Shown here piece by piece: positions 16,850-30,726 of a stretch of DNA of 43,411 nt. The notes under the pieces were generated by a model. The model was not told the origin of the DNA and made no database searches. It worked only from the letters and a program-made list of their open reading frames with translations. Location of the stretch: assembly GCA_001768325.1 (NCBI GenBank), contig MENQ01000026.1, positions 1-43,411 on the forward strand. Direction: 5' to 3'. Every line of letters starts with the position of its first letter. Positions within the stretch are counted from its first letter, which is position 1. The stretch comes from Bacteroidetes bacterium GWC2_46_850. GTDB lineage: Bacteria > Bacteroidota > Bacteroidia > Bacteroidales > Dysgonomonadaceae. The position numbers and the translations under genes are program-made.

Positions 16850-18427
16850 TCAATGATAACGTAGCGCCAGGACCGTGATGTCGTCCGATTGCTCAAAACT
16901 CTCTACATAAGTATCCAGGCCCTCAATCACCGATTGAATCATCGTAGAGACCGAAGCATGTGTGTCCTGGTTAAAAATCTGCAGCAACCGCTCCTCACCG
17001 AACAGCTGTTGCCTACTGTTCATTGCTTCGGTTACCCCGTCGGTATACATCAGTAGGGTATCTCCTGGCGACAGGGTGATCTCTTCGTTTTTGAATTGGA
17101 TATCCTCAAAGGCTGCCAACACAATACCGGGATGCAGCTTCTGGTATTCCCGTATATTTTTACCAAGAAAGATAAATGGATTGTGTCCGGCATTGGCAAA
17201 TTCCACATGTCCGGTATTGACATTCAGTTTCGCGAAGAAGAGAGTGACGAACATGCTCTGTTCGTTCCCTTTGCAAAGCTCGTTGTTCACCCTGTAGAGT
17301 ACATCGGCAGGAGTGATTCCGGTGAGGGCGATCGATTTAATGAGGGTATTGGTCATCGACATGAAGAGGGCGGCCGGTATCCCTTTGTCGGAGACATCAC
17401 CGATGGTAAAGCCCAGATGCTCGTCATCGATCATAAAATAATTATAGAGGTCGCCACCCACCTCCCTTGCCGGCTTCATAAAGCCACAGATAGCAAACTC
17501 ATCGTGATCGCAGAACCCGTCAACCTCCTTAGGGAGCATTCCCATCTGTATGGCATTTGCGATGCGAAGCTGGCTTTCCAGGCTCTCCTTGGCAGCCGTG
17601 GTCTTCTTCAGGTCGTTCACATAGTGTTTGATTGAGTTTTGCAGGTAGAGAAACGAACCGGATAGAATGCCGATTTCATCTTTGTATTTTAGGGAGAAGT
17701 CCTTCAGATAATTTTGATCATATTCGTTTAACTTGTAGTCGTTATCGACCATCTCTTTTGAAAATTTCACGAGCTTCCTGATGGGCGCCGACATCTTGTT
17801 GGTCAGAATAAAGGCGATGATAAACGATACGATCAGGATGAATAAACCAAACAGAATAAATCCGATGGCAATACCGGCAAGCTCACTCTCCACCACCTCA
17901 TAATCATAGTCGGCCCCCACCACGTAACGTGTTCCGTTGTCGGTGGTGAAAGGCACGAAAACCGATCTTACGGAACCGTAGGCATCTTTGTAACTGCTGT
18001 AAATGACCCGATTCTCGGCCAAAGGCGCAAAATAAACCTTTCTCATGGTTTCCTTATCGCCGATGTAGTCAGTGAAGAATGTATCGGTACTCAGGCTCCC
18101 CGAAGTCCAGCGCAACTCGTTGTTGTAAATAATGTAGGAGTAGACCTCCTTTACATCCACCTTATTGGCAAATTCATGCAGGGCGCTTCTTTTGAGTTCA
18201 AATTCTTCAGGGGTGATGGAGAACTCATTTTCTATCCGGTCGTGATATGCATCTCCCACCAGGTTATGCGCTCCATAAGCCACAGAAAACAACATGTCGT
18301 CGATTACACCTTGGGTAGATTTTTCGGTAAAAAAAACAGTCACCGCTGTGGTGAAGATGACACAACCGGCTATTGATGAAAAGAGCAACAGCAGTATTTT
18401 TTTCCTGAAAGGCAGATTTCTAAACAT
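16850..18427 (-). CDS. Membrane-bound SpoIIE-family PP2C serine phosphatase with HAMP domain
   Basis: 525 aa. TM1 is at residues ~9-32. An extracytoplasmic sensor domain of ~150 residues follows, then TM2 (~184-208), a HAMP-like segment, a short coiled coil, and a C-terminal SpoIIE/PP2C domain. Metal-site motifs are EVGGDLYNY, GDVSDKGIPAAL, YTDGVTEA and the terminal DDITVLAL. It should dephosphorylate STAS-domain proteins in response to an external signal. It is the last gene of a 12-gene operon, downstream of the RsbW-like kinase. Confidence 0.9.
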   Translation of the reverse strand: MFRNLPFRKKILLLLFSSIAGCVIFTTAVTVFFTEKSTQGVIDDMLFSVAYGAHNLVGDAYHDRIENEFSITPEEFELKRSALHEFANKVDVKEVYSYIIYNNELRWTSGSLSTDTFFTDYIGDKETMRKVYFAPLAENRVIYSSYKDAYGSVRSVFVPFTTDNGTRYVVGADYDYEVVESELAGIAIGFILFGLFILIVSFIIAFILTNKMSAPIRKLVKFSKEMVDNDYKLNEYDQNYLKDFSLKYKDEIGILSGSFLYLQNSIKHYVNDLKKTTAAKESLESQLRIANAIQMGMLPKEVDGFCDHDEFAICGFMKPAREVGGDLYNYFMIDDEHLGFTIGDVSDKGIPAALFMSMTNTLIKSIALTGITPADVLYRVNNELCKGNEQSMFVTLFFAKLNVNTGHVEFANAGHNPFIFLGKNIREYQKLHPGIVLAAFEDIQFKNEEITLSPGDTLLMYTDGVTEAMNSRQQLFGEERLLQIFNQDTHASVSTMIQSVIEGLDTYVESFEQSDDITVLALRYH

Positions 18428-18449
18428 GGTTCAATGTAAAGTGTCGATA

Positions 18450-18884
18450 CTAATCGATGGCAACCACAAATATATTGCGGTTTTTCCCTTCCCTGTATTC
18501 ATAGTCAAAGAGATCCACACTTTGCCGGGCCAGGAAAATACCGAGCCCCCCAATGGGTCTGTCCTCTACCGGTTTCATCAGATCTTCCGGTGTAGGCATA
18601 CCCTTCTCTATCGGGTTAAAAGGCATGGCATGGTCTTCGAGAACTACCTTCAATTGCTTGTCCTGATATCCGATGGAGACTTGAATGGTACCATCATCTA
18701 TACCGGCCAGCGGATAACCGTAATTCATGATGTTGGTCGCAATTTCGTCTACCGCCAGGGAGAGCTTGAATATCTTCTTTCTCTCGATGTTGTTGGCTGT
18801 GGCAAAGGCTGCAATAAAATCGCGTATCGGCTCAAGTGAATCGGGCACAGCATCAAAAATCTGAAATTTGGATTCTGCCTTCAT
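18450..18884 (-). CDS. RsbW/SpoIIAB-like anti-sigma-type serine kinase
   Basis: About 145 aa with a GHKL ATPase fold: N box AVDEIATNIMNYGY, G1 DHAMPFNP, G2 PIGGLGIFLARQ. The ATG at 18884 is chosen over a TTG at 18908 because it leaves a 1-nt gap to the upstream STAS gene. In partner-switching systems such kinases phosphorylate STAS antagonists and sequester a target. No sigma-B/F-type sigma factor is encoded in the window, so the target is unknown. Confidence 0.9.
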   Translation of the reverse strand: MKAESKFQIFDAVPDSLEPIRDFIAAFATANNIERKKIFKLSLAVDEIATNIMNYGYPLAGIDDGTIQVSIGYQDKQLKVVLEDHAMPFNPIEKGMPTPEDLMKPVEDRPIGGLGIFLARQSVDLFDYEYREGKNRNIFVVAID

Positions 18885-18885
18885 G

Positions 18886-19206
18886 CTATTCCGGATATTG
18901 GTCCACAATATTTACACTGAATATCAACCCTGTCATCCTCAGCGTCTCGAGCAATTGTTCTTGGGGCCTGACCAGGATCAGAGAGGCGGTTGTACCCAAT
19001 TTTTGTTTTGCAAAAATAAGCATCCTTAATCCAGCGGATGACATAAAACTGAGTTCCTCCACATAGAGTACCAGTGCCTGCGGGTTTTGCGTAACTACCT
19101 GTTTCACCTCTTCGCCAAATTGTGGCGCGGTAGATGAATCCAAAGATCCGCCAATCGTTAATGCTGTATACTTTTCAAAAATCTCTTTTTTTACTGAAAA
19201 ACCCAT
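18886..19206 (-). CDS. STAS-domain anti-sigma factor antagonist-like protein (1)
   Basis: 106 aa, single STAS domain. The phospho-site region ELSFMSSAGLRMLIFAKQ keeps the Ser equivalent to Ser58 of B. subtilis SpoIIAA. It lies between glgX and the kinase gene, 1 nt from the latter, so is the likely direct substrate of that kinase and of the SpoIIE phosphatase. Confidence 0.88.
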   Translation of the reverse strand: MGFSVKKEIFEKYTALTIGGSLDSSTAPQFGEEVKQVVTQNPQALVLYVEELSFMSSAGLRMLIFAKQKLGTTASLILVRPQEQLLETLRMTGLIFSVNIVDQYPE

Positions 19207-19230
19207 ATCTGTTCCTCCAAATTAAATAAT

Positions 19231-21354
19231 TTATTTCCCTATTAAAACAATCACCGAACGTCCACCCACAATAAAACCTGACTGATTTTCCAGTGCTGGT
19301 TCGCTATTCAGCGGATAGAATGTCTCGGGGGGCATCATGGATGTGTTGACGGAAAGATGCCATTTCCTGTTTTCCGATAACTGGGGCAGTTCAAAATCGA
19401 GTGCATCCCAGTGCATATTGGCCGCCACATAGATGGTATCATCCTTTACGAAGCCGTTTTTGGCATGATGCCCGTCGAGCATGAAAGCGAAGACTGTAGT
19501 TGATTCAGACCAGTCGGCATGCCATGCTTTGGTGCCATGAAATGTGATATCGGCATAACCGCTCTCCTTATAATCTCTGTTGCTGTAATGCTCTTTATTC
19601 CTTAATATCGGATGCTGTCTCCGAAAGTTAATGATGTGCCGGGCAAAAGACAACAGATCGAAATTCTTCTGTACAAGACTCCAGTCCAGCCAGTTTAACG
19701 AACTGTCGTGGCAATAGGTGTTGTTATTCCCATATTGCGTCCTGCCCATCTCATCACCCATCAGGATCATCGGCACCCCCTGGCTGAGCATCAGGATGGT
19801 CAGTGCATTTTTAATCTGACGATGCCTCAGAAGGTTTACGGCGAGGTCGTCCGTCTCACCCTCCCACCCGCAATTCCAGCTGAAGTTGTCATTGCATCCA
19901 TCCTGGTTATTTTCACCGTTTGCTTCGTTGTGTTTCTCGTTGTAGGCAAACAGGTCATACAGCGTGAAGCCGTCGTGGCAGGTGATGAAGTTAATCCCGG
20001 CCGTAGTACCCCGGTGCAGGTACATCTCGGGCGATCCCTGCATGCACTGCGACAGCTGACCCACCGTATTGTGTTCGCCCTTAAGGAATTTCCTGACAGT
20101 ATCCCTGTATTTCCCATTCCATTCCGCCCAGCGACCATAGGCAGGAAAGACTCCTACCTGGTAGAGTCCGCCGGCATCCCACGCCTCGGCAATCAGTTTG
20201 CATTTGGCCAGGATGGGATCGTGAGCCAGTGATTCCAGCAACGGGGGATTGTTCAGGGGACTGCCATCCTGCGCACGTCCGAGTATGGAAGCCAGATCAA
20301 AACGGAATCCGTCTATATGATATTCTGATGTCCAGTAACGGAGGCAGTCGAGTACCATATTGCGAACCACGGGGTGGTTGCAGTTGAGGGTATTACCCGT
20401 ACCGGAGAAATTAAAATAATAGCCATCGGGGGTGAGCATGTAGTATGTTTTGTTGTCGATACCCCTGAAGGAGATGGTCGGCCCGCGGTGATCACCCTCT
20501 GCCGTATGGTTAAACACCACATCCAAAATAACTTCAATGCCGTTCCTGTGCAACTCTTTAATCAGAGTCTTCAGCTCATCCACTGCCATCCCGTACTTGC
20601 CTGTTGCGGCGTAGCCTGCCTTGGGAGCAAAGAAATTGAGTGTGCTGTATCCCCAATAGTTCACCAGCAAATCACCTGTATCTGGATTTTCATGGCTGTG
20701 TTCGAATTCATCAAACTCATAAATCGGCATCAGCTCCACGCAGTTGATACCCAACTCAAGCAGATAAGGTATCTTCTCCCTGATGGCCGCAAAGGTACCC
20801 CGGTGTCTGACGCCCGATGAGGGGTGGGACGTAAAGCCTCTCACATGGATCTCGTAAATAATCAGATCCTCCATGGGTGTTTCCAGCGGGTTGTCCTCCT
20901 CCCAGTCGAAATCATCAAACACCAGCCGCGACCGGAACGGATAATTCCTGTTCAAGCCCGAGATATCACGCCAGGTATCCCTGCCTCCTATTGCCTTGGC
21001 ATAGGGATCCGATAAAACAATATCTCTGTTGAACCGATGCCCGTTTTGCGGATCGTGGGGACCTTCCATCCTGTAACCATATTCTATATTCTCATAATCG
21101 AGGCCAAAGACAATGATGGCATATACATTTCCCACCCTGAATTCATCGGGAAGCGGTATCTCGGCATAGGGATCCTCCTCGTTTTTATTGAACAGGACCA
21201 AGGTACAGGAGGTGGCCGCACTCGAGAAAACGGAAAAGTTCACGCCGTTGGGCACCAGGGTCGCTCCGAAAGGGAGCACACGCCCCCTCCTGTATTTGAT
21301 ACCCTGGTATTCGTTTGTGGGGTAGAAATCGATCCTGTTATCGAGTGTAGTCAT
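19231..21354 (-). CDS. glgX: Glycogen debranching enzyme GlgX-like (GH13)
   Basis: 707 aa, the usual GlgX/isoamylase length. An N-terminal carbohydrate-binding beta domain (PFGATLVPNGVNFSVFSS) precedes the GH13 barrel: DVVFNHTAEGD, DGFRFDLAS (nucleophile Asp), IAEAWDAGG (acid/base Glu) and FITCHDGF. It hydrolyses alpha-1,6 branches of glycogen or limit dextrin. Unexpectedly, it sits between two STAS genes, with 2-3 nt separating the upstream STAS stop from its ATG. Cytosolic; no signal peptide. Confidence 0.92.
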   Translation of the reverse strand: MTTLDNRIDFYPTNEYQGIKYRRGRVLPFGATLVPNGVNFSVFSSAATSCTLVLFNKNEEDPYAEIPLPDEFRVGNVYAIIVFGLDYENIEYGYRMEGPHDPQNGHRFNRDIVLSDPYAKAIGGRDTWRDISGLNRNYPFRSRLVFDDFDWEEDNPLETPMEDLIIYEIHVRGFTSHPSSGVRHRGTFAAIREKIPYLLELGINCVELMPIYEFDEFEHSHENPDTGDLLVNYWGYSTLNFFAPKAGYAATGKYGMAVDELKTLIKELHRNGIEVILDVVFNHTAEGDHRGPTISFRGIDNKTYYMLTPDGYYFNFSGTGNTLNCNHPVVRNMVLDCLRYWTSEYHIDGFRFDLASILGRAQDGSPLNNPPLLESLAHDPILAKCKLIAEAWDAGGLYQVGVFPAYGRWAEWNGKYRDTVRKFLKGEHNTVGQLSQCMQGSPEMYLHRGTTAGINFITCHDGFTLYDLFAYNEKHNEANGENNQDGCNDNFSWNCGWEGETDDLAVNLLRHRQIKNALTILMLSQGVPMILMGDEMGRTQYGNNNTYCHDSSLNWLDWSLVQKNFDLLSFARHIINFRRQHPILRNKEHYSNRDYKESGYADITFHGTKAWHADWSESTTVFAFMLDGHHAKNGFVKDDTIYVAANMHWDALDFELPQLSENRKWHLSVNTSMMPPETFYPLNSEPALENQSGFIVGGRSVIVLIGK

Positions 21355-21356
21355 GT

Positions 21357-21689
21357 TTATATGAATTGTTTTTCTGCTTCATCAATGCTGCCATAAAGTT
21401 CGAAGAAATTAATGAATCCGGTCATCGACATGATGTCGCAAATCTCGTCTGAGACGTTTACCAGCAACACTTTGCCACCATTGGTACTGAGTTGTCTGTA
21501 AAGCATCAGCAAGACCCGCAACCCGGCACTGGAAAGGAAATCGACGGCGGTTAGATCCATAATTACCCGGTTAAAAGATCCCAGTTTTTCAAGGATGTGC
21601 GACTGCAATTCCCCGGCTGTGTTGCTATCTATACTTCCCTGAATTGTGATATAGACAATGTTGTTTTTTGTTTGAATTGTTACTTTCAT
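21357..21689 (-). CDS. STAS-domain anti-sigma factor antagonist-like protein (2)
   Basis: 110 aa, single STAS domain (ITIQGSIDSNTAGELQ, then VDFLSSAGLRVLLMLYRQL). The predicted phospho-Ser is retained. It differs clearly from STAS protein 1 and lies upstream of glgX in the same operon. Two STAS proteins with a single kinase suggests either two inputs or division between kinase substrate and downstream effector. Confidence 0.88.
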   Translation of the reverse strand: MKVTIQTKNNIVYITIQGSIDSNTAGELQSHILEKLGSFNRVIMDLTAVDFLSSAGLRVLLMLYRQLSTNGGKVLLVNVSDEICDIMSMTGFINFFELYGSIDEAEKQFI

Positions 21690-21703
21690 TTATTCTATTT
21701 TGA

Positions 21704-23542
21704 CTAATCGAGCCAGCTCTTTGGCGCTATTTTCACTTTCACTCTCAACTGTTTATCGGTTTGTGGCAATATCACCGTGAGCTCATCTGCATTAAAGTTG
21801 TGGTAAGGTTCTCCGTCGATGCTGCAGCTCTCTATAAAGACGCTGTTTGCCGGCAGGATGTCGGGGGAAACACGGAGAATATTGTCTTTGAAACTGTTCG
21901 GTAGCGGCTTGAAATGCAGTATCAGGGGCTGTTTGGTGATGAGCAGGTTGATGTAGGTTGCCGACAGGAAACAGAGCTCCATGCTGTGATAGCCGCTCAT
22001 GGAATGGCTCCCTTTGAACCGTTCATTGCCAAGCAGGTAAGGCAAACCGTTGGCCAGCGTGTTAAAATAGACACCGCCATCATCACTGTCGAGGAAAAAA
22101 GCATTGTAAAATGCAGCTGCTTCCCGTCCGTTTTTGTTGTACTCATCGTCTTTCAATATTCCAAACATGATGAGGTATGCCAGGATAGCCTGTTCCTGCT
22201 GCCACCATGCTTTCCGGTCGTGCCAGACAAACTCATGATGTGCTCCGTTGGGTTTGGTTACTCGCTCCACCACATCATACCAGCCACCTCTTTGTCTGTC
22301 GCAGCCAACTTCGGGCATCAGCTCCGCAATCTTTCTGGCAAAATCGAGGTACTCCTTTTTGGGTTTCAGGGATTGCATCCGCATGAGGTTCCAGGCGATC
22401 TTCAGGTTGTGTCCCACCACGGCCCTGTTTTGTTGCCAGCCCCATGTCTGATCCAGGCTCCAGTCCTCGTGAAATTTCTCCTGCACGAAAGGGCTGTTTT
22501 CATAATCTGGAAAGAAACGGGTGATGGTGTCAAAGGTATATTCGAGGAAGTCGGCATATTTATCTTCGCCGGTGGCCAGATAGAGGTTAATCAGGTAAGC
22601 AGGAGCATGATCTCCCACCGAGTTCCAGTTCTTGCGGGCACAGTTGTGAGCAAGGCTCTCCGTTCTCGGATCCAACATAATGGGATCGATGTGGGAGAAG
22701 TAACCCATATTTTCCTCGTCTTTGAAAAAGCGCTCGAACAGATCCAGTGTTTTGTCGATGTCCCATTTGATTTTGGGATCACCCGTGATCCGCATGGTCT
22801 GCGTGGGTCCCGCCAGGGCATAGATCTGCTCATACATGGGAATGGAGTCGTAATCATCGCCAAACTCCGAAGTCAGTAGCTTGGTCTCTTTTTCCCCTTC
22901 CACCTTGATTCCGTGATACCAATAAACGATATCTTCATCGGCATCATAAAAACGCATGTGATCGCGCAGGTAATCACTCCCTTTCTCGGCAGCCTCGAGG
23001 TATTCATCTTTACCAGTGAGGAGATAGGCCGATGCAAATCCGTAGATTAACCGCGAAATAGTATCTGTTTCCTGCAGATAATCCCCTTTTTTTGATCCCC
23101 CCAGGTGCAACATGGTACGATAGTTTTCATAATCGATGGGTTTATCAGGAAAATCGAACTGCCATTTCATGTAGCTGGATGCGATGGAATCAATCTGGTT
23201 GATCCACCAGTCGGGTTCCTCATGCCGGTATTTACCGGGACCCTTTCCCGGAAAGACAATCCATTGTACCTGAAAAAAGGGCTGGCTGCTATTCTCCCGG
23301 GGATAAAATGTGCCGTATGCAAAGACCATCTGCCGTGGCAGAGCCAGTAGGTTCAGCATATCGGCCGTGGCATCCTTGTATGCCTCATTCAGGTTGCGTG
23401 CATACCGCGCATAGCAATTATCCGAGATATATGCTTTGAAAATGCGGTTATCTGAAGTTTTCAGAGAAAAGGTGCGTTCGTTCAGATTGAAGTCTGTCAC
23501 GTAACCAGCGATTGTGTCGGAAAAGGTAAAGTTGATATCCAT
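21704..23542 (-). CDS. AGE-family (N-acylglucosamine 2-epimerase-like) protein, extended
   Basis: 612 aa, longer than the ~400 residues of usual AGE epimerases. The central (alpha/alpha)6-like region has HNCARKNWNSVGDHAPAY, WGWQQNRAVVGHNLKIAW and a KAWWQQEQAILAYL motif typical of AGE/cellobiose 2-epimerases. There are an N-terminal beta-rich extension (~110 residues) and a C-terminal ~70-residue tail. Likely a cytosolic sugar epimerase/isomerase; the sugar cannot be told. 14 nt upstream of STAS gene 2. Confidence 0.8.
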   Translation of the reverse strand: MDINFTFSDTIAGYVTDFNLNERTFSLKTSDNRIFKAYISDNCYARYARNLNEAYKDATADMLNLLALPRQMVFAYGTFYPRENSSQPFFQVQWIVFPGKGPGKYRHEEPDWWINQIDSIASSYMKWQFDFPDKPIDYENYRTMLHLGGSKKGDYLQETDTISRLIYGFASAYLLTGKDEYLEAAEKGSDYLRDHMRFYDADEDIVYWYHGIKVEGEKETKLLTSEFGDDYDSIPMYEQIYALAGPTQTMRITGDPKIKWDIDKTLDLFERFFKDEENMGYFSHIDPIMLDPRTESLAHNCARKNWNSVGDHAPAYLINLYLATGEDKYADFLEYTFDTITRFFPDYENSPFVQEKFHEDWSLDQTWGWQQNRAVVGHNLKIAWNLMRMQSLKPKKEYLDFARKIAELMPEVGCDRQRGGWYDVVERVTKPNGAHHEFVWHDRKAWWQQEQAILAYLIMFGILKDDEYNKNGREAAAFYNAFFLDSDDGGVYFNTLANGLPYLLGNERFKGSHSMSGYHSMELCFLSATYINLLITKQPLILHFKPLPNSFKDNILRVSPDILPANSVFIESCSIDGEPYHNFNADELTVILPQTDKQLRVKVKIAPKSWLD

Positions 23543-23551
23543 ATAGAATTG

Positions 23552-24112
23552 CTATTTTTTTCTTGTGTCCGGGAATAATCTGTTCGCATACATATAAATG
23601 AAGGGTACAAAAACGCCCCAGGCTGCTGCAATGATAACCAGACTATAAACTCCATGTGTGAGTTCCACAAGTCCGAAGCGTTCTGCCGATCTGAATATCA
23701 ATACCGCAAAGACGATTCCCAGCAGAGCGTTGACGAAATGCTTTCCTCGTGTAAAGACGAGGTAGGAGATGATCCTGACACTGAAATTGACCCAGAGGGC
23801 CAGTATCCAGATTGGCAGGAGAAACTGAAGATCGAGCAGCCGCGAAGAGGGATTCACGGAATATACCGAGGCGACAATCAGCAAGGTCTCCATTACGGCA
23901 GCAGCAAGCGTAACAAGAACTACCAGTTTTATTTTCTTCGTGATGAGTTTCTTATCCTGAAGCAGGTCTATCAGTATAATCAGCAGCACCACAGCCATTC
24001 CAAGCCATGGCATCTGCTGCAGGGCACCAAAATAACAGGCAACCACACCGATCATGAAAGTGAGGGTTCCTGTAATTTGATTCACCCAAAATGCAAGATT
24101 TGCGTTGTTCAT
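23552..24112 (-). CDS. Integral membrane protein of unknown function
   Basis: 186 aa with about six hydrophobic helices (e.g. MIGVVACYFGALQ, LGMAVVLLIILIDLL, LGIVFAVLIFRS, LVIIAAAWGVFVPFIYMY). No family motif recognised. It lies 9 nt upstream of the AGE gene and 20 nt after the ThDP enzyme gene in the operon, so a membrane role linked to the pathway is possible. Confidence 0.75.
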   Translation of the reverse strand: MNNANLAFWVNQITGTLTFMIGVVACYFGALQQMPWLGMAVVLLIILIDLLQDKKLITKKIKLVVLVTLAAAVMETLLIVASVYSVNPSSRLLDLQFLLPIWILALWVNFSVRIISYLVFTRGKHFVNALLGIVFAVLIFRSAERFGLVELTHGVYSLVIIAAAWGVFVPFIYMYANRLFPDTRKK

Positions 24113-24132
24113 TGTTCACCGTTTATTATTTT

Positions 24133-25785
24133 TTATTCATCGAAAGCGGCAAAAGGTGGATAAATTTCCGGATCGACAATGACATCGATCAGTGCCGGTT
24201 TTCCCAGGCTCAGGGCGGTTGTAAAAGCAGCTTCAAACTGATCGATCTCTGTGACCCTGAACCCTTGTGCTCCGCAAGCTTCCGCATATTTCACGTAATC
24301 GGGATTTAAGAAGTGGTTAAACACCTCTTTATTTTTCGATCTCAGTTGAAAGTATTTGATGATGTTGAATTCCGAATTATTGAAGATAATCCAGATCACC
24401 GGCACATTCTCCTGCACGGCGGTCATCAGCTCCAATCCAGCCATCTGGTAGTCTCCATCACCGCAGGCCACAATCACCGGCCTGTCGGGATTGGCATACT
24501 TTACCCCTATGGAAGCATTCACATTGGCAGCCATCGGCCCGAAGCTACCCGGGTTCTGGTAATTCCTGCCCTTGTCGAGAGTGAGATAAGCATGCAACCA
24601 GAGCATATGTCCGCCGGCATCACCAAGGATGATGCTCTTCTCTGGTGACAACCGCGATATCTCGCGTACCAGCATAGCCGGGTGAATTTTGTCACTGGAC
24701 TGCACCAGCTTCACATTCCGAAACTGATCTGTGCCCATTACAGAATGCAGCTTTCCTGCTCCCATAGCGGTCATTTTCGCATGCAGGGCAGCAATTGCCG
24801 GTTTCGCGTCCGATACTACAGGATAGTCGGCTTTATACACCTTGTCAATTTCATTGGAATCGATGTTGATGTGAATAAGCTCCTTGTTTTCAAACAGCAC
24901 ATCTTTAAAGCGCCATGTATTCCACTTGGCGAAAGAGTTTCCGATCGCAAGGACCAGATTGGACTCTTTAAAATACTTTTTGACACCGGGATCGCCCGAC
25001 GTGCCAAAAGTACCCAGACAGAGCGGATGCGTTTCAGGTAGGGATCCCTTGGCATCCATGGTGGTACAGAAAGGTATGCGAAACGCTTCCAGCATCTGCA
25101 GCAGATCACCCTCCGCATGGCTTCTGATGGTGCCATAACCGACAAGGGCCATTACCTTTTTCCCGCTATTTATGGCGTTTGTCAGCGCAGCAGCGGCCTT
25201 GTCCAGATCTTCCTGTGCGCCCAATACCGGTTTTACATGAAAACTGAGTGGCCGGTAATTGGGCACCTCCTCTTCGTAAATACTATAATCGATATGGACA
25301 TTCACCGGACCGGGGCGGCCTTCAAAAGCAAGGTTTATCGCCTCCTCGAGTATATCACAGGCCTTGGAGGGATCCTCCAGGATAAATGATTTTTTTGTGA
25401 GTGCCGAAAAGATTGCCTGCCCGTCGGGTGTTCGGTTTAGCCCCGAAGTATCGCCCAGGTCTCCTTTACCGCGCATTGCACGGGGAGTATATGCAGGCAG
25501 GGAAAGCAGCGGGAGTGAATCGGAATAGGCAACCGCCATTCCCGAAAGCAGATTCACAGCTCCCGGGCCGGCCGTACAAAAGCATACCCCCAGTTTATCG
25601 GAATACATGGCATAACCGCATGCCATGAACGAGGCGGCCTGTTCATGACGCGGGATGACGGTTTTAATTTTTTCTGTTCTGCTCAGCGCAAACAAAAAGG
25701 CAGAGTCTGACTGGCCGGATCCTCCAAATACTGTATCCACACCAATTGTCTCGAGATAATCTACAATAAGATCTCCAACATTCAT
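24133..25785 (-). CDS. Thiamine diphosphate-dependent enzyme (acetolactate synthase-like)
   Basis: 550 aa. The catalytic Glu region is PRHEQAASFMACGYAM with CTAGPGAVNLLSGMA. The C-terminal ThDP-Mg motif is GDGDYQMAG followed by IIFNNSEFN. All three domains (PYR, central, PP) are present. The family includes acetolactate synthase, glyoxylate carboligase and 2-oxoacid decarboxylases; the substrate is not determined. No small regulatory subunit (IlvN) and no ilvC/ilvD are nearby, so a non-biosynthetic role is likely. Lies 11 nt from the DJ-1-like gene. Confidence 0.88.
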   Translation of the reverse strand: MNVGDLIVDYLETIGVDTVFGGSGQSDSAFLFALSRTEKIKTVIPRHEQAASFMACGYAMYSDKLGVCFCTAGPGAVNLLSGMAVAYSDSLPLLSLPAYTPRAMRGKGDLGDTSGLNRTPDGQAIFSALTKKSFILEDPSKACDILEEAINLAFEGRPGPVNVHIDYSIYEEEVPNYRPLSFHVKPVLGAQEDLDKAAAALTNAINSGKKVMALVGYGTIRSHAEGDLLQMLEAFRIPFCTTMDAKGSLPETHPLCLGTFGTSGDPGVKKYFKESNLVLAIGNSFAKWNTWRFKDVLFENKELIHINIDSNEIDKVYKADYPVVSDAKPAIAALHAKMTAMGAGKLHSVMGTDQFRNVKLVQSSDKIHPAMLVREISRLSPEKSIILGDAGGHMLWLHAYLTLDKGRNYQNPGSFGPMAANVNASIGVKYANPDRPVIVACGDGDYQMAGLELMTAVQENVPVIWIIFNNSEFNIIKYFQLRSKNKEVFNHFLNPDYVKYAEACGAQGFRVTEIDQFEAAFTTALSLGKPALIDVIVDPEIYPPFAAFDE

Positions 25786-25796
25786 TATGAACTATT

Positions 25797-26564
25797 TTAG
25801 TTTTTTTCGAGTGCTTTCACCAGTTGTCTTCCATATTCTGCTGACGATTCCACAGAGAGTCCGGTCACAAAGGGCCAGTCCACTGCTACACAGGGATTTT
25901 CGGGTGTAGCCATATCGTCGGCAAGCACCTTCCCATTCGGACCGACTGCATCCTCTACTATATCCTGCAATGGAATAAGGAAGCCAGGTGTCATCAGATC
26001 GGTTCCCTTGTTGTCGGGCGTAGCACCCAGCAGGTCGTAGGTTAAATCAAAATCGACAAAATCCCATTTCCGCGGATGTGCAGTAACTTTCTTTCCGTAG
26101 ATAACGCTCCTGTAATTATTTTCAGGATCACGGGTGAAGGCAAGTGCACCTACCGAATAACAGATGGCACCGACCATTTTGTTGTTCTTTACGCAATGCA
26201 GAATCATGCGGTGTACAGCCGGATTATTGCAAATATCAAGTGGGGTACCCGGTCCGCCGGTCATTACCAGCGCATCGTAATCTGCCATGTTTACTTCGCT
26301 TATTTTCTTCGGATTATCCAGCTCGCCGTTACTCAACAGTTCCAGTGTACGGGCTACCGTCTCGGGGGTATTTACCTTGATGTTCTGATATCCGTCCACG
26401 AAGTCAGGATCCATGCTCATCGCAATGGGCAGGGGTTTCTTTCCTAAATAGGTAGCAAGCGTTACATTGTGTCCTGCTTTTTTGAGTGCATCCCACGGGG
26501 CCTGAAGCTCTTCGGCCCAGAAAGCATAATTGCTGGCCAATACCAATACATTTTTCTTCATCAT
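25797..26564 (-). CDS. DJ-1/PfpI superfamily protein (type 1 glutamine amidotransferase-like)
   Basis: 255 aa. The nucleophile elbow is GAICYSVGAL with Cys at about 135; an acidic partner is in FWAEEL (~Glu18/19) and MTGGPGTPLD precedes it. The size and an inserted segment resemble Hsp31-like members, some of which act on methylglyoxal or as stress chaperones. A second DJ-1 protein begins the operon. Two adjacent start codons (MM) leave 3 nt of uncertainty. Confidence 0.85.
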   Translation of the reverse strand: MMKKNVLVLASNYAFWAEELQAPWDALKKAGHNVTLATYLGKKPLPIAMSMDPDFVDGYQNIKVNTPETVARTLELLSNGELDNPKKISEVNMADYDALVMTGGPGTPLDICNNPAVHRMILHCVKNNKMVGAICYSVGALAFTRDPENNYRSVIYGKKVTAHPRKWDFVDFDLTYDLLGATPDNKGTDLMTPGFLIPLQDIVEDAVGPNGKVLADDMATPENPCVAVDWPFVTGLSVESSAEYGRQLVKALEKN

Positions 26565-26594
26565 ATTGAATTTTAAAGTGATTTAGCAAAAAGA

Positions 26595-26915
26595 TCAAAT
26601 GGTTTTCACGGGACTAAAGACATCAATGGCTTCGGTGTCGCCTACCGAAGTAAATGAGTGAGGCGCATTGGGTGGGATAAAATAGTAGTCGCCCGCTTCG
26701 AGCAATCGGGTCACACCGGCGATGGTCGCTTTGAATGCACCTTTTATCACATAACCGAATTGTTCCGATTCGTGGTGGTGCTCAGGCAATGTTACATTGT
26801 CTGCAAAATTCCAGTGCATCACATTCATATTCTGACCGCTTCCCAGATACTGGCCCAGCACGCCTTTAAACAGTTCTTTCTTTTCTGCATCCTTCGCGTA
26901 ACGAAATGGTTCCAT
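26595..26915 (-). CDS. Single-domain cupin protein
   Basis: 106 aa. Cupin motif 1 is LPEHHHESEQFGYVIKG and motif 2 is PPNAPHSFTSVG. The His cluster and Glu imply a metal-binding small beta barrel. Function could be an isomerase, dioxygenase or sugar-binding role; nothing in the sequence decides. Part of the operon, 30 nt upstream of the Hsp31-like gene. Confidence 0.85.
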   Translation of the reverse strand: MEPFRYAKDAEKKELFKGVLGQYLGSGQNMNVMHWNFADNVTLPEHHHESEQFGYVIKGAFKATIAGVTRLLEAGDYYFIPPNAPHSFTSVGDTEAIDVFSPVKTI

Positions 26916-26961
26916 AGATTTATTTGTTTGTTAATTATCTTATTTTCTGATTCACGTGCGG

Positions 26962-27918
26962 TCACATATTCAGGCAAATGCGAAAGCCAATATCGAAATA
27001 ACAGGTATACTGGTAATTGGTATTGTATCGGTAAGCGCTGAATGGCATATTGTTGTCGTGCCTGTACCAGCTACCACCTCTTTTTTGTTTATAGACACCT
27101 TCCTGAGGGCCAGCGGGGCTGGTAAGGGTATCGGTGGGGTAGGTTGCATAAAAATCGTTGACCCACTCTTCGGCATTGCCAATCAGGTTGTAAAGCCCCA
27201 AGGAGCTTTTTCCTTCTTCAAAGTCGGCAACATCGGTAAGCCTTTCCCGGTTTAATCCAAAATTTGCACACCGGTCCAAATTTTCAAAATCGTCACCCCA
27301 GGGGAAAGTCCGTCCGTCCGGATATCGGGCAGCATACTCCCACTCAGCCTCGGTTGGGAGACGGTATCCTTTGCCATAATTGCTGTTCCAGCTGTTCAGA
27401 TCGTACGTTTCTTCTAGTCCTTCACTGCGGCTAAGCATGTTGCAGTAGAAAGCAGCACCATACCAGGTTACATACACAACCGGCAGGTTTGCTTCTTCAT
27501 CAGACACCGTGAAGCGGGATTTTTCAAATCGGATGGGATTTCGGTTCCCTTTGTAGTTGGCCTCCAGATTCAGCAGCACTTGCGAATCACCGTACCTGTT
27601 TTTCACCGAGATGTTCTGTTTGTAGTCGCCGCTCAGTTCGCCCTGGAGCAATGCATAGTTTAACATCTGGCAAAATTGCGCGTTGCTTACTTCATAAGTC
27701 CCTAATTTAAAACCATTCGGAATGATGACGGTATGCAGTGGAAAACCGAGCCTGAAGTCGCCCAGTATCTGTCCCATGGTAAATGTGCCGGCAGGAATAT
27801 CTATCATTTCCGGTACTTCAAAAAGCGCTGCTCCCTCAGTTTTTTGTGTGTGGGTGCAGCTGAGAGATAAAAGAAGAGAAAGACAAAGCAGGCAGCCTGT
27901 TTGTTTGAAATTTATCAT
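26962..27918 (-). CDS. SUMF1/formylglycine-generating-enzyme-like lipoprotein
   Basis: 318 aa. A signal peptide ends in the lipobox LSLSC-T (Cys ~21). The domain shows IPAGTFTMGQ, VTWYGAAFYCNMLSRSEGLEETYDL (split here only for length), RLPTEAEWEYAARYP, LIGNAEEWVNDFY and RGGSWYRHDNN. The paired catalytic Cys of true FGE near the C-terminus are not seen, so it is probably a structural or ligand-binding SUMF1-fold protein, as in GldK/GldJ-type lipoproteins. 10 nt after the first DJ-1 gene. Confidence 0.85.
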   Translation of the reverse strand: MINFKQTGCLLCLSLLLSLSCTHTQKTEGAALFEVPEMIDIPAGTFTMGQILGDFRLGFPLHTVIIPNGFKLGTYEVSNAQFCQMLNYALLQGELSGDYKQNISVKNRYGDSQVLLNLEANYKGNRNPIRFEKSRFTVSDEEANLPVVYVTWYGAAFYCNMLSRSEGLEETYDLNSWNSNYGKGYRLPTEAEWEYAARYPDGRTFPWGDDFENLDRCANFGLNRERLTDVADFEEGKSSLGLYNLIGNAEEWVNDFYATYPTDTLTSPAGPQEGVYKQKRGGSWYRHDNNMPFSAYRYNTNYQYTCYFDIGFRICLNM

Positions 27919-27928
27919 GGTTACTCAA

Positions 27929-28495
27929 TTATTTCAGTTTAATCTTCTCAATGATTGCCTTCGCAAACAGGTGAGCGTAATCGCCAGCACGGGCAGTAAT
28001 CAGATCTTCGTCGACTACCACGTTTTCATCCACATAGACAGCCCCGTAGGCCTTTGCATCGCCCAGCAAATTGTTATGACAGACCAGCCTCCTTCCTTTG
28101 ATGAGCTCGGTGGCTGGAGCCACCAACCACAAACCATGACAGATGATTCCTTTGATGATTTCCTTTTTAGCAAAGGCACGTTTGATAAATTCGACGGCAG
28201 GGGGTAGTTTGTGAATATCTTCGGTATAACGCAACCTGTCGGCAACCATGCCGGAGGGAATGATGACAGCATCATAGCTCGAGAGCTCCTCCTCGCTCAT
28301 CTCCTCGAAGCTTTCGTTACACGCCATGGGCACTTTATATTCGTGTCCGTAGAAGGTGAGCCTCTCTTGTCCCCAGAGCCGGCTTAGAAAATGCAGGTCA
28401 AAATTTTCTTCTGCAAAGCGGTACTTATAATAGAAAATCTCATTTTCGTAAAAATCGCTTTCTATTAAAACCGCAATTTTGATTGTGCGATTCAT
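27929..28495 (-). CDS. DJ-1/PfpI family protein, first gene of the operon
   Basis: 188 aa. The nucleophile elbow is GIICHGLW (Cys ~119, His ~120), the PfpI-type Cys-His dyad, with an acidic residue near the N-terminus (ESDFYENEI). Likely a small stress or glyoxalase-III-like/deglycase-type enzyme, or a protease-like homologue; activity is unproven. Following genes are spaced 10-46 nt, so it begins the 12-gene unit. Confidence 0.85.
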   Translation of the reverse strand: MNRTIKIAVLIESDFYENEIFYYKYRFAEENFDLHFLSRLWGQERLTFYGHEYKVPMACNESFEEMSEEELSSYDAVIIPSGMVADRLRYTEDIHKLPPAVEFIKRAFAKKEIIKGIICHGLWLVAPATELIKGRRLVCHNNLLGDAKAYGAVYVDENVVVDEDLITARAGDYAHLFAKAIIEKIKLK

Positions 28496-29124: not shown

Positions 29125-29244
29125 CTAAATCTTTTCAATTATTTCTTTCCTAACTGCCTCCCAAGCTTTATCATTGTTATATTCAGTCCCTGGCTTGAGG
29201 ATGATATGAATATCTTCTAAAAACTCTCGGTCGGTCATTTTTTT
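29125..29244 (-). pseudogene. Out-of-frame C-terminal segment of AbiEii
   Basis: Skipping one A in the A7 tract (29238-29244) continues the toxin in another frame as MTDREFLEDIHIILKPGTEY and on to WEAVRKEIIEKI, ending at TAG 29125-29127. This segment reads like the normal C-terminus of Bacteroidota AbiEii proteins, whereas the current frame ends in an unrelated basic tail. Confidence 0.7.
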
Positions 29245-29917
29245 CTTCTATATTAGTGCGGAATTGTTTTTGTGTAGGTGGTTTGTCAACTGAAAACTGC
29301 ATATAGGTTTTATAGCAACGGATAAGTTTTTCAGCATCTATTTGTTGGTTTTTCAACGCCCAATACAGATCGAAAAGGTCACGACCTTTGCGACGTTGGT
29401 ATAAAGCACGGAGCTTAGTCCCAAGCATTTCTTCTATTTCATAACTTGTTATAATACACTCGCCGGTAAACCAACCATTTTCTATTCTGTATGGGATTTT
29501 TCTTAGTTCCAACACATTGAAATGTTCGCGTGTGTTGATCTCTATCTTCAACCGCATATTAATTATCGGCTGTGTACTTGTGTCAAAACGGTAAATAATA
29601 GTATTGTTATGAATATGCTGTTTTACCGTTCGTTTCGTTCCTAGGAAAGCAAGCCGTTCACGAATTTGTTTCAATATCGGATTAATAGGTTCTGAATTGA
29701 TTTGTACCAAATCAATGTCTTCGGAATAGCGAGCCTGCGGTTGTAAATACAATTTATGCAAGGCTGTCCCACCACGAAAAGCCAATGCATTCTTCAGAAA
29801 ATTGTCGGAAAATATCTCAACTAATGCCCTCGCAATTATTAAATCTTGTTCAACTTGTGCATCGGTAGGCCAAGGAGCTTGCGTTTTCCATTCTGTAATA
29901 TATCGTAGTGGTATCAT
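29183..29917 (-). CDS. abiEii: AbiEii-type nucleotidyltransferase toxin (frameshifted 3' end)
   Basis: 244 aa in the present frame. The nucleotidyltransferase motifs are FRGGTALHKLYLQPQ and RYSEDIDLVQ, with the later conserved MLGTKLRALYQRRKGRDLFD. It is the toxin of a type IV toxin-antitoxin/abortive infection pair. It overlaps the AbiEi gene by 4 nt (ATGA). A one-base shift at an A7 tract (29238-29244) replaces the last ~37 residues by about 17 unrelated ones (DRPRVFRRYSYHPQARD). The catalytic core is unaffected, so activity may persist. Confidence 0.85.
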   Translation of the reverse strand: MIPLRYITEWKTQAPWPTDAQVEQDLIIARALVEIFSDNFLKNALAFRGGTALHKLYLQPQARYSEDIDLVQINSEPINPILKQIRERLAFLGTKRTVKQHIHNNTIIYRFDTSTQPIINMRLKIEINTREHFNVLELRKIPYRIENGWFTGECIITSYEIEEMLGTKLRALYQRRKGRDLFDLYWALKNQQIDAEKLIRCYKTYMQFSVDKPPTQKQFRTNIEEKNDRPRVFRRYSYHPQARD

Positions 29918-30726
29918 AAATCACTCTCTATTTCCACATTTTTAATTACTTTCCATGTTTCGTCTGTTACACCTTTGTTCTCATTTTGAGTAGATAGCAA
30001 AACAGGGATACTACTTCTCCTATTTAGTGCTTTTTGTAAACTCTCAGCCAATTTTTCTTCACCTAGTATTTTATCCAAGATGTATCCTAATCGCTGAATG
30101 ACTGGTGTACTTTGATATCGCAATGCTGTTTTTACGAGTGCTGATATTTTCATAATCGGCGCTAATTCCTGTAATACGGTAGTTGCCCGATTCAGTCCAA
30201 TTTTTTGGGGATAGTTCAATAGATCAAGTGCGGTCAATTCGGGTGAGGAAATATTGATATACCCTGCATCGGTTGCCTTTTGTACAATATCGTCCTGTTC
30301 CCAATTATTTTTTGAGAAAAATGAAATTTTCAACTTTTTATTATTAATGCTTCGCGGCGCAGGGGTTCGCACTATCACAAAAAACTCCATGGGTTGCTGA
30401 TGCGCTGCACCATGCAAAGCTGCCGCAGACAATAATGCTACATAATAGGGCTTGTTCAGCGACTTCATTAGATCGTCGATAAACAGATAAGGCGGCAACA
30501 TTCCTTGCTTGGAATATTCGGGGGGAATTGTCACATAAAATCCTTGACGTACCTGTGCTATTTCGTTTTTGGATTTGAGTCTATACAGATTTTGCTTTAA
30601 AGCACCATAAGATATATTGAACTCGTTTTGCAGTTCTTCAAGTGTAAAAGAATATCGTCCGACAGAACGTATACTATCTATATACCTTCTCAGATAATTA
30701 TAAGATATTTGCTCTGACTTTTTCAT
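29914..30726 (-). CDS. abiEi: AbiEi-family antitoxin / autorepressor
   Basis: 270 aa. An N-terminal winged helix (residues ~10-70: YSFTLEELQNEFNISYGALK, RQGFYVTIPPEY) is followed by the AbiEi antitoxin domain. AbiEi proteins neutralise AbiEii without direct complex formation and repress their own promoter by binding inverted repeats. The large inverted repeat 10 bp upstream of the ATG fits this precisely. The pair sits in AT-rich DNA downstream of tRNA-Ser. Confidence 0.87.
   Translation of the reverse strand: MKKSEQISYNYLRRYIDSIRSVGRYSFTLEELQNEFNISYGALKQNLYRLKSKNEIAQVRQGFYVTIPPEYSKQGMLPPYLFIDDLMKSLNKPYYVALLSAAALHGAAHQQPMEFFVIVRTPAPRSINNKKLKISFFSKNNWEQDDIVQKATDAGYINISSPELTALDLLNYPQKIGLNRATTVLQELAPIMKISALVKTALRYQSTPVIQRLGYILDKILGEEKLAESLQKALNRRSSIPVLLSTQNENKGVTDETWKVIKNVEIESDL

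Follow-up and report, generated by a model that had tools for sequence, protein, structure and literature searches.

A probable icfG-type partner-switching operon, with glycogen and sugar enzymes, in a Bacteroidetes genome

What does a partner-switching phosphorelay control when it is built into a sugar operon that encodes no sigma factor of the sigma-B/F type? The question is raised by the window analysed here, a stretch of 43,411 nucleotides from Bacteroidetes bacterium GWC2_46_850 (assembly GCA_001768325.1, contig MENQ01000026.1), in which twelve open reading frames (ORFs), all on the minus strand, occupy positions 16850..28495. The first-pass annotation had described twelve genes spaced 1-46 nt apart that set a complete switch (a membrane SpoIIE phosphatase, an RsbW-like kinase and two STAS proteins) among GlgX, an AGE-family epimerase, a thiamine diphosphate (ThDP)-dependent enzyme, two DJ-1/PfpI proteins and others; ORF coordinates and the list of gaps confirm the layout, and Pfam and NCBIfam matches confirm the families and thereby support a full switch inside the operon. 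The set is not new: its core is published in cyanobacteria as the icfG cluster. Judged by sequence, an intact-looking membrane phosphatase, one kinase, two STAS proteins, GlgX and AGE stand in the order shared with icfG. Gene order in 80 related loci, AGE and GlgX identity, the published operon and conserved residues together suggest that the operon is very probably an icfG-type cluster. New here are the recurrence of the core order across about eleven phylum-level groups and on plasmids, and fusions of AGE with a STAS domain.

The Synechocystis operon slr1852-1862 (PCC 6803) holds an AGE epimerase, STAS, GlgX and IcfG (PMC8670252), and slr1854 is given as an unknown protein (PMC3564720). A third paper describes an icfG cluster made up of kinase Slr1861, the STAS pair Slr1856 and Slr1859, phosphatase IcfG and an isoamylase, in which both STAS proteins are substrates of the kinase and IcfG dephosphorylates Slr1856 and not Slr1859; it reports carbon phenotypes in mutants of the cluster, ties the partner switch to carbon metabolism, and states that the targets of the two STAS proteins are unknown (PMC12329169). 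The first-pass proposal of a link to carbon metabolism is thus in line with how the cyanobacterial cluster is described. The window has the same AGE, STAS, GlgX, STAS and kinase/phosphatase set in one run. It differs in that its kinase precedes the phosphatase, whereas the locus tags put phosphatase slr1860 ahead of kinase slr1861, an order matched by Nostoc sp. 106C (L092); in its additional ThDP, DJ1b (the longer DJ-1-like protein), cupin, SUMF1-like and DUF2878 genes; and in a genome where no second sigma gene with region 3 was found, hence no evident counterpart of SigC. Compared with four cyanobacterial loci, AGE is 68-69% and GlgX 68-70% identical. A literature search of partial coverage recognised no publication about such a cluster in organisms other than cyanobacteria. 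Work on icfG has treated it as a carbon regulator of cyanobacteria; with the same core in relatives of a Bacteroidota fermenter and in many phyla, its basic job need not be specific to photosynthesis.

The conservation of gene order was assessed in loci picked by AGE alone. A scan of titled genomes gave at least 444 confirmed relatives, and we used the best 80 (63-96% identical), so that the counts describe close relatives of AGE, each order count taking only loci with enough sequence at that position. One of the 80 (L048) is probably the genome of a same-genus relative, G003; L103 lacks a complete AGE frame, and in loci where no GlgX was found the later counts use an estimated GlgX end. Nearest among these 80 are a Porphyromonadaceae metagenome-assembled genome (MAG) and Proteiniphilum sp. 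UBA5267, each with an AGE 96% identical. A STAS gene is next after AGE in 77/78 loci, followed by GlgX (67/70), a second STAS (59/69) and the kinase (60/65), and G003 keeps all twelve genes in unchanged order, consistent with the first-pass expectation that the arrangement would be conserved in relatives. In a phylum-wide sample, 34 of 395 genomes match AGE at E 1e-10; 13 of these, the window's own included, are at least 41% identical over most of its length, and one more over 59 residues only. Such conservation bears on whether the genes merely came to lie side by side, through chance or hitchhiking, and share no function, a reading that could draw on the presence of STAS1 in only two of 25 genomes in the genus sample (the window's own and 24 relatives), namely the window's genome and G003; the core order kept in the AGE-chosen loci contradicts it, and we consider it most improbable.

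SpoIIE lies in the downstream stretch examined in 28/62 loci, and we rejected the idea that the phosphatase is missing from many loci, since SpoIIE was found elsewhere in all 11 genomes searched and closes the same-strand run, 8-15 kb past the kinase region, in all five chosen stretches (Spirosoma, Persicitalea, Dyadobacter, Runella and Mucilaginibacter). The distant SpoIIE carries a receiver domain in the one of the five that was checked. In some Bacteroidota (L057, L161-L165) large genes separate kinase from SpoIIE, among them those for an nSTAND1-WD40 protein (L057) and for a TonB receptor, a HEAT protein and sensor kinases (L161). A gene for a MinD/ParA-type ATPase follows the cluster in several phyla (L167, L169, L170, L088, L090, L101, L104, L107 and L123).

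The switch proteins keep the residues that an icfG-type system calls for. S53 and S54 of STAS2 are kept in 77/77 aligned rows and S57 of STAS1 in 65/65, position 56 of STAS1 being Ser in 29 and Ala in 36; kinase residues E55, N59, D92, G121 and G123 (numbered from the TTG start) are kept in 64/64. Of 28 phosphatase rows, 25-26 retain the Asp columns 326, 344, 463, 515 and 516, the misses being L053, L099 and L114; these counts take in all 28 rows, whereas the phosphatase alignment A3 leaves out six of 27 rows that are short or unusual (L053, L090, L099, L102, L114 and L117) and adds three others. We take these serines and the kinase and phosphatase residues to be the phosphorylated and catalytic sites known for the families. 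In one Chloroflexi MAG a tandem pair of STAS2-type genes stands between AGE and GlgX (L084:10815-11613).

A structure model of the phosphatase (predicted local distance difference test 82.0, predicted template modelling score 0.51) returned only PP2C matches in a fold search, its PP2C part matching the RssB and SiaA domains; the extracytoplasmic sensor region is predicted from this model. Phosphatase inputs vary around a constant core in related loci, from dCache-HAMP to a receiver domain to a fusion, in which a single 808-aa protein joins kinase, receiver, GAF and SpoIIE domains (L117:14882-17308). By analogy with Synechocystis, the kinase would phosphorylate both STAS proteins and the phosphatase would reverse at least one of these steps. 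An extracytoplasmic signal would set phosphatase activity, unphosphorylated STAS2 would hold the kinase, and STAS1 would be the output arm, at least part of the output being binding to the AGE enzyme. Taken as a whole, the likely reading of the operon is an icfG-type phosphorelay that works by partner switching and adjusts glycogen-linked sugar metabolism; the step from STAS1 to AGE is possible, and we hold it with somewhat less than even confidence.

AGE-STAS fusions name AGE as a concrete candidate target. A C-terminal STAS domain on AGE occurs at eight loci, six in genomes of the phylum sample and two on plasmids. Five of the six genomes belong to one Chlorobiaceae-like genus and the sixth is G429; the FMO protein, typical of green sulfur bacteria, was found in G111, in its genus-mate G134 and in G193, and not in G429. 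Among these six, the fused STAS is visible in the alignment for three, lies above the Pfam cut-off in both that were tested, and is hit by the profile in 6/6 (52-57 bits). On the plasmids of Nostoc sp. C052 and Gemmobacter aquarius, two of six plasmid records inspected, GlgX is followed by a long AGE; the Nostoc extension passes the Pfam STAS threshold and reaches 105 bits against the STAS1 profile, and that of Gemmobacter has no Pfam STAS match and a profile score of 37 bits. By bits, which we quote since the E-values of these profile searches refer to 12 and 6 sequences, the STAS1 profile outscores the STAS2 profile in 8/8; both profiles derive from iterated STAS hits and may mix the two types, and the fused domains are tentatively placed closer to the STAS1 type. 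A fold search with a model of the fusion gave only AGE-type and related sugar-enzyme folds among the 50 matches listed; with no STAS fold among them, the assignment rests on Pfam, profile hits and predicted secondary structure. Fusion of two genes is a classic sign that their products touch, and these fusions hint at contact between a STAS protein and the epimerase, lending support to the first-pass suggestion that a STAS protein might bind an enzyme directly. More tentatively still, STAS1 may dock on AGE, and perhaps on GlgX, and so gate the flow of glycogen-derived sugar, with kinase and phosphatase setting the docking, the fusions being a frozen form of the contact, and the module present in many phyla and on plasmids.

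Several observations weigh against the icfG-type reading as a whole. Of the eight fused STAS domains, seven have lost the invariant serine and the eighth (Nostoc C052) has Thr in its place, so that the fused form is unlikely to be switched as the separate proteins would be. BLAST of the stretches around the six phylum-sample fusions (one of them only 6.9 kb long) found neither a separate STAS nor a separate kinase, and a free-standing kinase is found elsewhere in each of these genomes. In 10/69 AGE-chosen loci no second STAS was found behind GlgX, and in 5/65 no kinase (two Nitrospirota and three cyanobacterial loci), and the sequence link to Synechocystis itself runs via other cyanobacteria and published gene names. 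Finally, Slr1861 is reported as an anti-sigma factor for SigC, acting with the unlinked Ssr1600 (PMC12329169).

This last report, together with the serine loss, makes transcriptional output a strong rival to enzyme output: the kinase would be an anti-sigma factor for the primary or an extracytoplasmic function (ECF) sigma factor, and the enzymes would merely be co-expressed. The first-pass statement that no sigma-B/F-type factor is encoded is borne out, as no sigma factor match was found among the twelve operon proteins in the family searches, and the genome has a single gene with sigma region 3 against 24 region-2 matches; as a sign of output other than through sigma, the absence does not stand, given the reported binding of SigC in Synechocystis. 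A local sigma factor as output was likewise not found in the 80 loci, where a mostly ECF-type profile, made from the 24 sigma loci of the window's genome and gauged for other types by one independent hit (L045), returned no sigma-like ORF. The genome holds one free-standing kinase of the RsbW-like family, the other eight matches lying in frames of at least 391 aa, and an unlinked set of dCache-HAMP-SpoIIE, STAS and ECF sigma genes on another contig (L046:7188-10124), the order of which is kept in G003 (L166:3660-6787). Consistent with a sigma output, this SpoIIE and the kinase were both found only in G000 and G003 among 16 same-genus genomes, the window's own included (outside the genus, weaker SpoIIE matches occur in 4/9 genomes and kinase matches in 7/9); these two are close relatives, however, and the co-occurrence may go back to a single event. 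The ECF gene has relatives in 14 of 25 same-genus genomes, nine of which showed neither the unlinked SpoIIE nor the kinase, as in G005, whose relative is 74% identical, which argues that the ECF factor needs neither. Given this wider spread, the unlinked SpoIIE-STAS pair may feed the operon's kinase without serving the ECF factor; that the pair feeds the same kinase is a lead, not a result. We regard a purely transcriptional switch as a serious possibility that we do not expect to hold.

GlgX scores above the TIGR02100 cut-off of 640.9 bits for debranching enzymes, its nearest solved structure being plant isoamylase 1 (616.6 bits, against 426.6 bits for the GlgX entry 2wsk in PDB). Three AGE histidines (H312, H378 and H519) are invariant in nine rows and, numbered 307, 373 and 514, in 30 chosen rows; from family knowledge we take them to be catalytic. 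The ThDP enzyme has TIGR00118 as its top NCBIfam model at 313.8 bits, under the cut-off of 538.35. Around the core, the 56 loci of at least 20 kb hold DJ1a (the operon's first gene) in 54, ThDP in 37, DJ1b in 36, cupin and SUMF1 in 5 each, and DUF2878 in 3. Counted over all loci that have both, DJ1b adjoins ThDP in 39 of 43. Accessory genes of the window reappear near the core in Balneolota (L054 and L055), an Acidobacteria MAG (L113, partly on the opposite strand) and a deltaproteobacterial MAG (L116).

The frequency of the DJ-1 and ThDP genes, along with glyoxalase, SnoaL, GMC oxidoreductase and metallo-beta-lactamase-fold genes in related clusters, would suit an operon serving mainly a reactive-carbonyl or unusual-sugar pathway, with glycogen as the carbon source and the switch as a stress sensor. 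Family names do not show activity, and the DJ-1 proteins match their closest solved structures weakly (about 50 bits at best); moreover, DJ1b and ThDP were not found in the examined stretch of 12/12 cyanobacterial loci of at least 20 kb, where the core stays. We consider this pathway unlikely to be the main role of the operon. The first-pass interpretation is partly supported overall, and the reactive-carbonyl defence that it proposed is a conjectural role. We do not claim a DJ-1 gene in the Synechocystis operon, slr1854 being given as an unknown protein (PMC3564720). In a Runella cluster, SnoaL-like genes stand in a row next to a GMC oxidoreductase (L031:3341-8059).

Among other known systems, the Bacillus switches SpoIIAA-SpoIIAB-SpoIIE and RsbV-RsbW-RsbU share the three protein families and conserved residues with the operon, which differs in lacking a sigma-B/F gene and being embedded among metabolic genes. 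SiaABCD of Pseudomonas aeruginosa also has a membrane SpoIIE phosphatase, and the SiaA PP2C domain is among the top fold matches; the NCBIfam model for SiaA gives 66.5 bits, far under its cut-off of 700, and no GGDEF match that would indicate a diguanylate cyclase such as SiaD was found in the twelve proteins at E 0.1.

The cluster also occurs on plasmids. Of the 20 plasmid records that AGE matches, 16 are at least 50% identical across 97% or more of the protein; six of the 20 were inspected, for which PLSDB gene tables are incomplete. Plasmids of Runella rosea, Streptomyces, Deinococcus and Nostoc NIES-3756 carry DJ-1, AGE, STAS and GlgX in order, and their tables list a kinase for Runella rosea and Streptomyces and SpoIIE for Streptomyces and Deinococcus. 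On the Streptomyces plasmid a GlgE-type maltosyltransferase and GlgB adjoin the cluster, and in Runella rosea the cluster sits on a named plasmid. The contig G230:C31 (66697 bp; L031/L032) has ends identical over 127 bases within the AGE gene, and from this is probably circular and perhaps a plasmid. Despite the plasmid copies, the 11 groups in a tree of 82 AGE proteins call for 11 label changes (minimum possible 10), so that the tree is mostly sorted by phylum, indicating that AGE is old rather than freshly spread among these rows.

The features of the operon are collected in Table 1. Taking ATG 18884 as the kinase start (a longer TTG start at 18908 would overlap STAS1), we obtain eleven gaps of 10, 46, 30, 11, 20, 9, 14, 2, 24, 1 and 22 nt.

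Table 1. Genes of the operon from first to last, with window positions and family matches.
Feature	Position	Strand	Evidence
DJ1a, DJ-1/PfpI family, first gene of the operon	27929..28495	-	PF01965, 80 bits
SUMF1-like (FGE-sulfatase) protein, probable lipoprotein	26962..27918	-	PF03781, 145.6 bits; lipobox-like N-terminus by eye
Small cupin (Cupin_2)	26595..26915	-	PF07883, 58.4 bits
DJ1b, longer DJ-1/PfpI-like protein	25797..26564	-	PF01965, 47.5 bits
ThDP-dependent enzyme, acetolactate synthase/decarboxylase superfamily	24133..25785	-	TPP_enzyme N, M, C
DUF2878 membrane protein	23552..24112	-	PF11086, 64.4 bits
AGE, 612-aa AGE-family epimerase/isomerase with extra N-terminal domain	21704..23542	-	PF07221 (GlcNAc_2-epim), 67.3 bits at 161-494
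STAS2, STAS-only, between AGE and GlgX	21357..21689	-	PF01740, 81.5 bits
GlgX glycogen debranching enzyme	19231..21354	-	TIGR02100, 702.8 bits
STAS1, STAS-only, after GlgX	18886..19206	-	PF01740, 55.8 bits
RsbW/SpoIIAB-like serine kinase	18450..18884	-	PF13581 (HATPase_c_2), 76.2 bits
Membrane SpoIIE/PP2C phosphatase, predicted extracytoplasmic sensor region	16850..18427	-	PF07228, 179.2 bits

A foreign base composition of the operon was not borne out, its G+C fraction (0.475) being close to that of the flanks (0.463 and 0.462). Promoter-like sites show no enrichment (18 versus 22.8 in shuffles); terminator-like sites number 19 versus 12.9 (standard deviation 4.3), and nothing is built on them. 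A search with Rfam returned three tRNAs and nothing else. An AAA ATPase gene lies on the minus strand 132 nt past the end of the operon, and an AbiEii/AbiEi-type toxin-antitoxin pair (29183-30726) lies on the operon's strand, 687 nt upstream.

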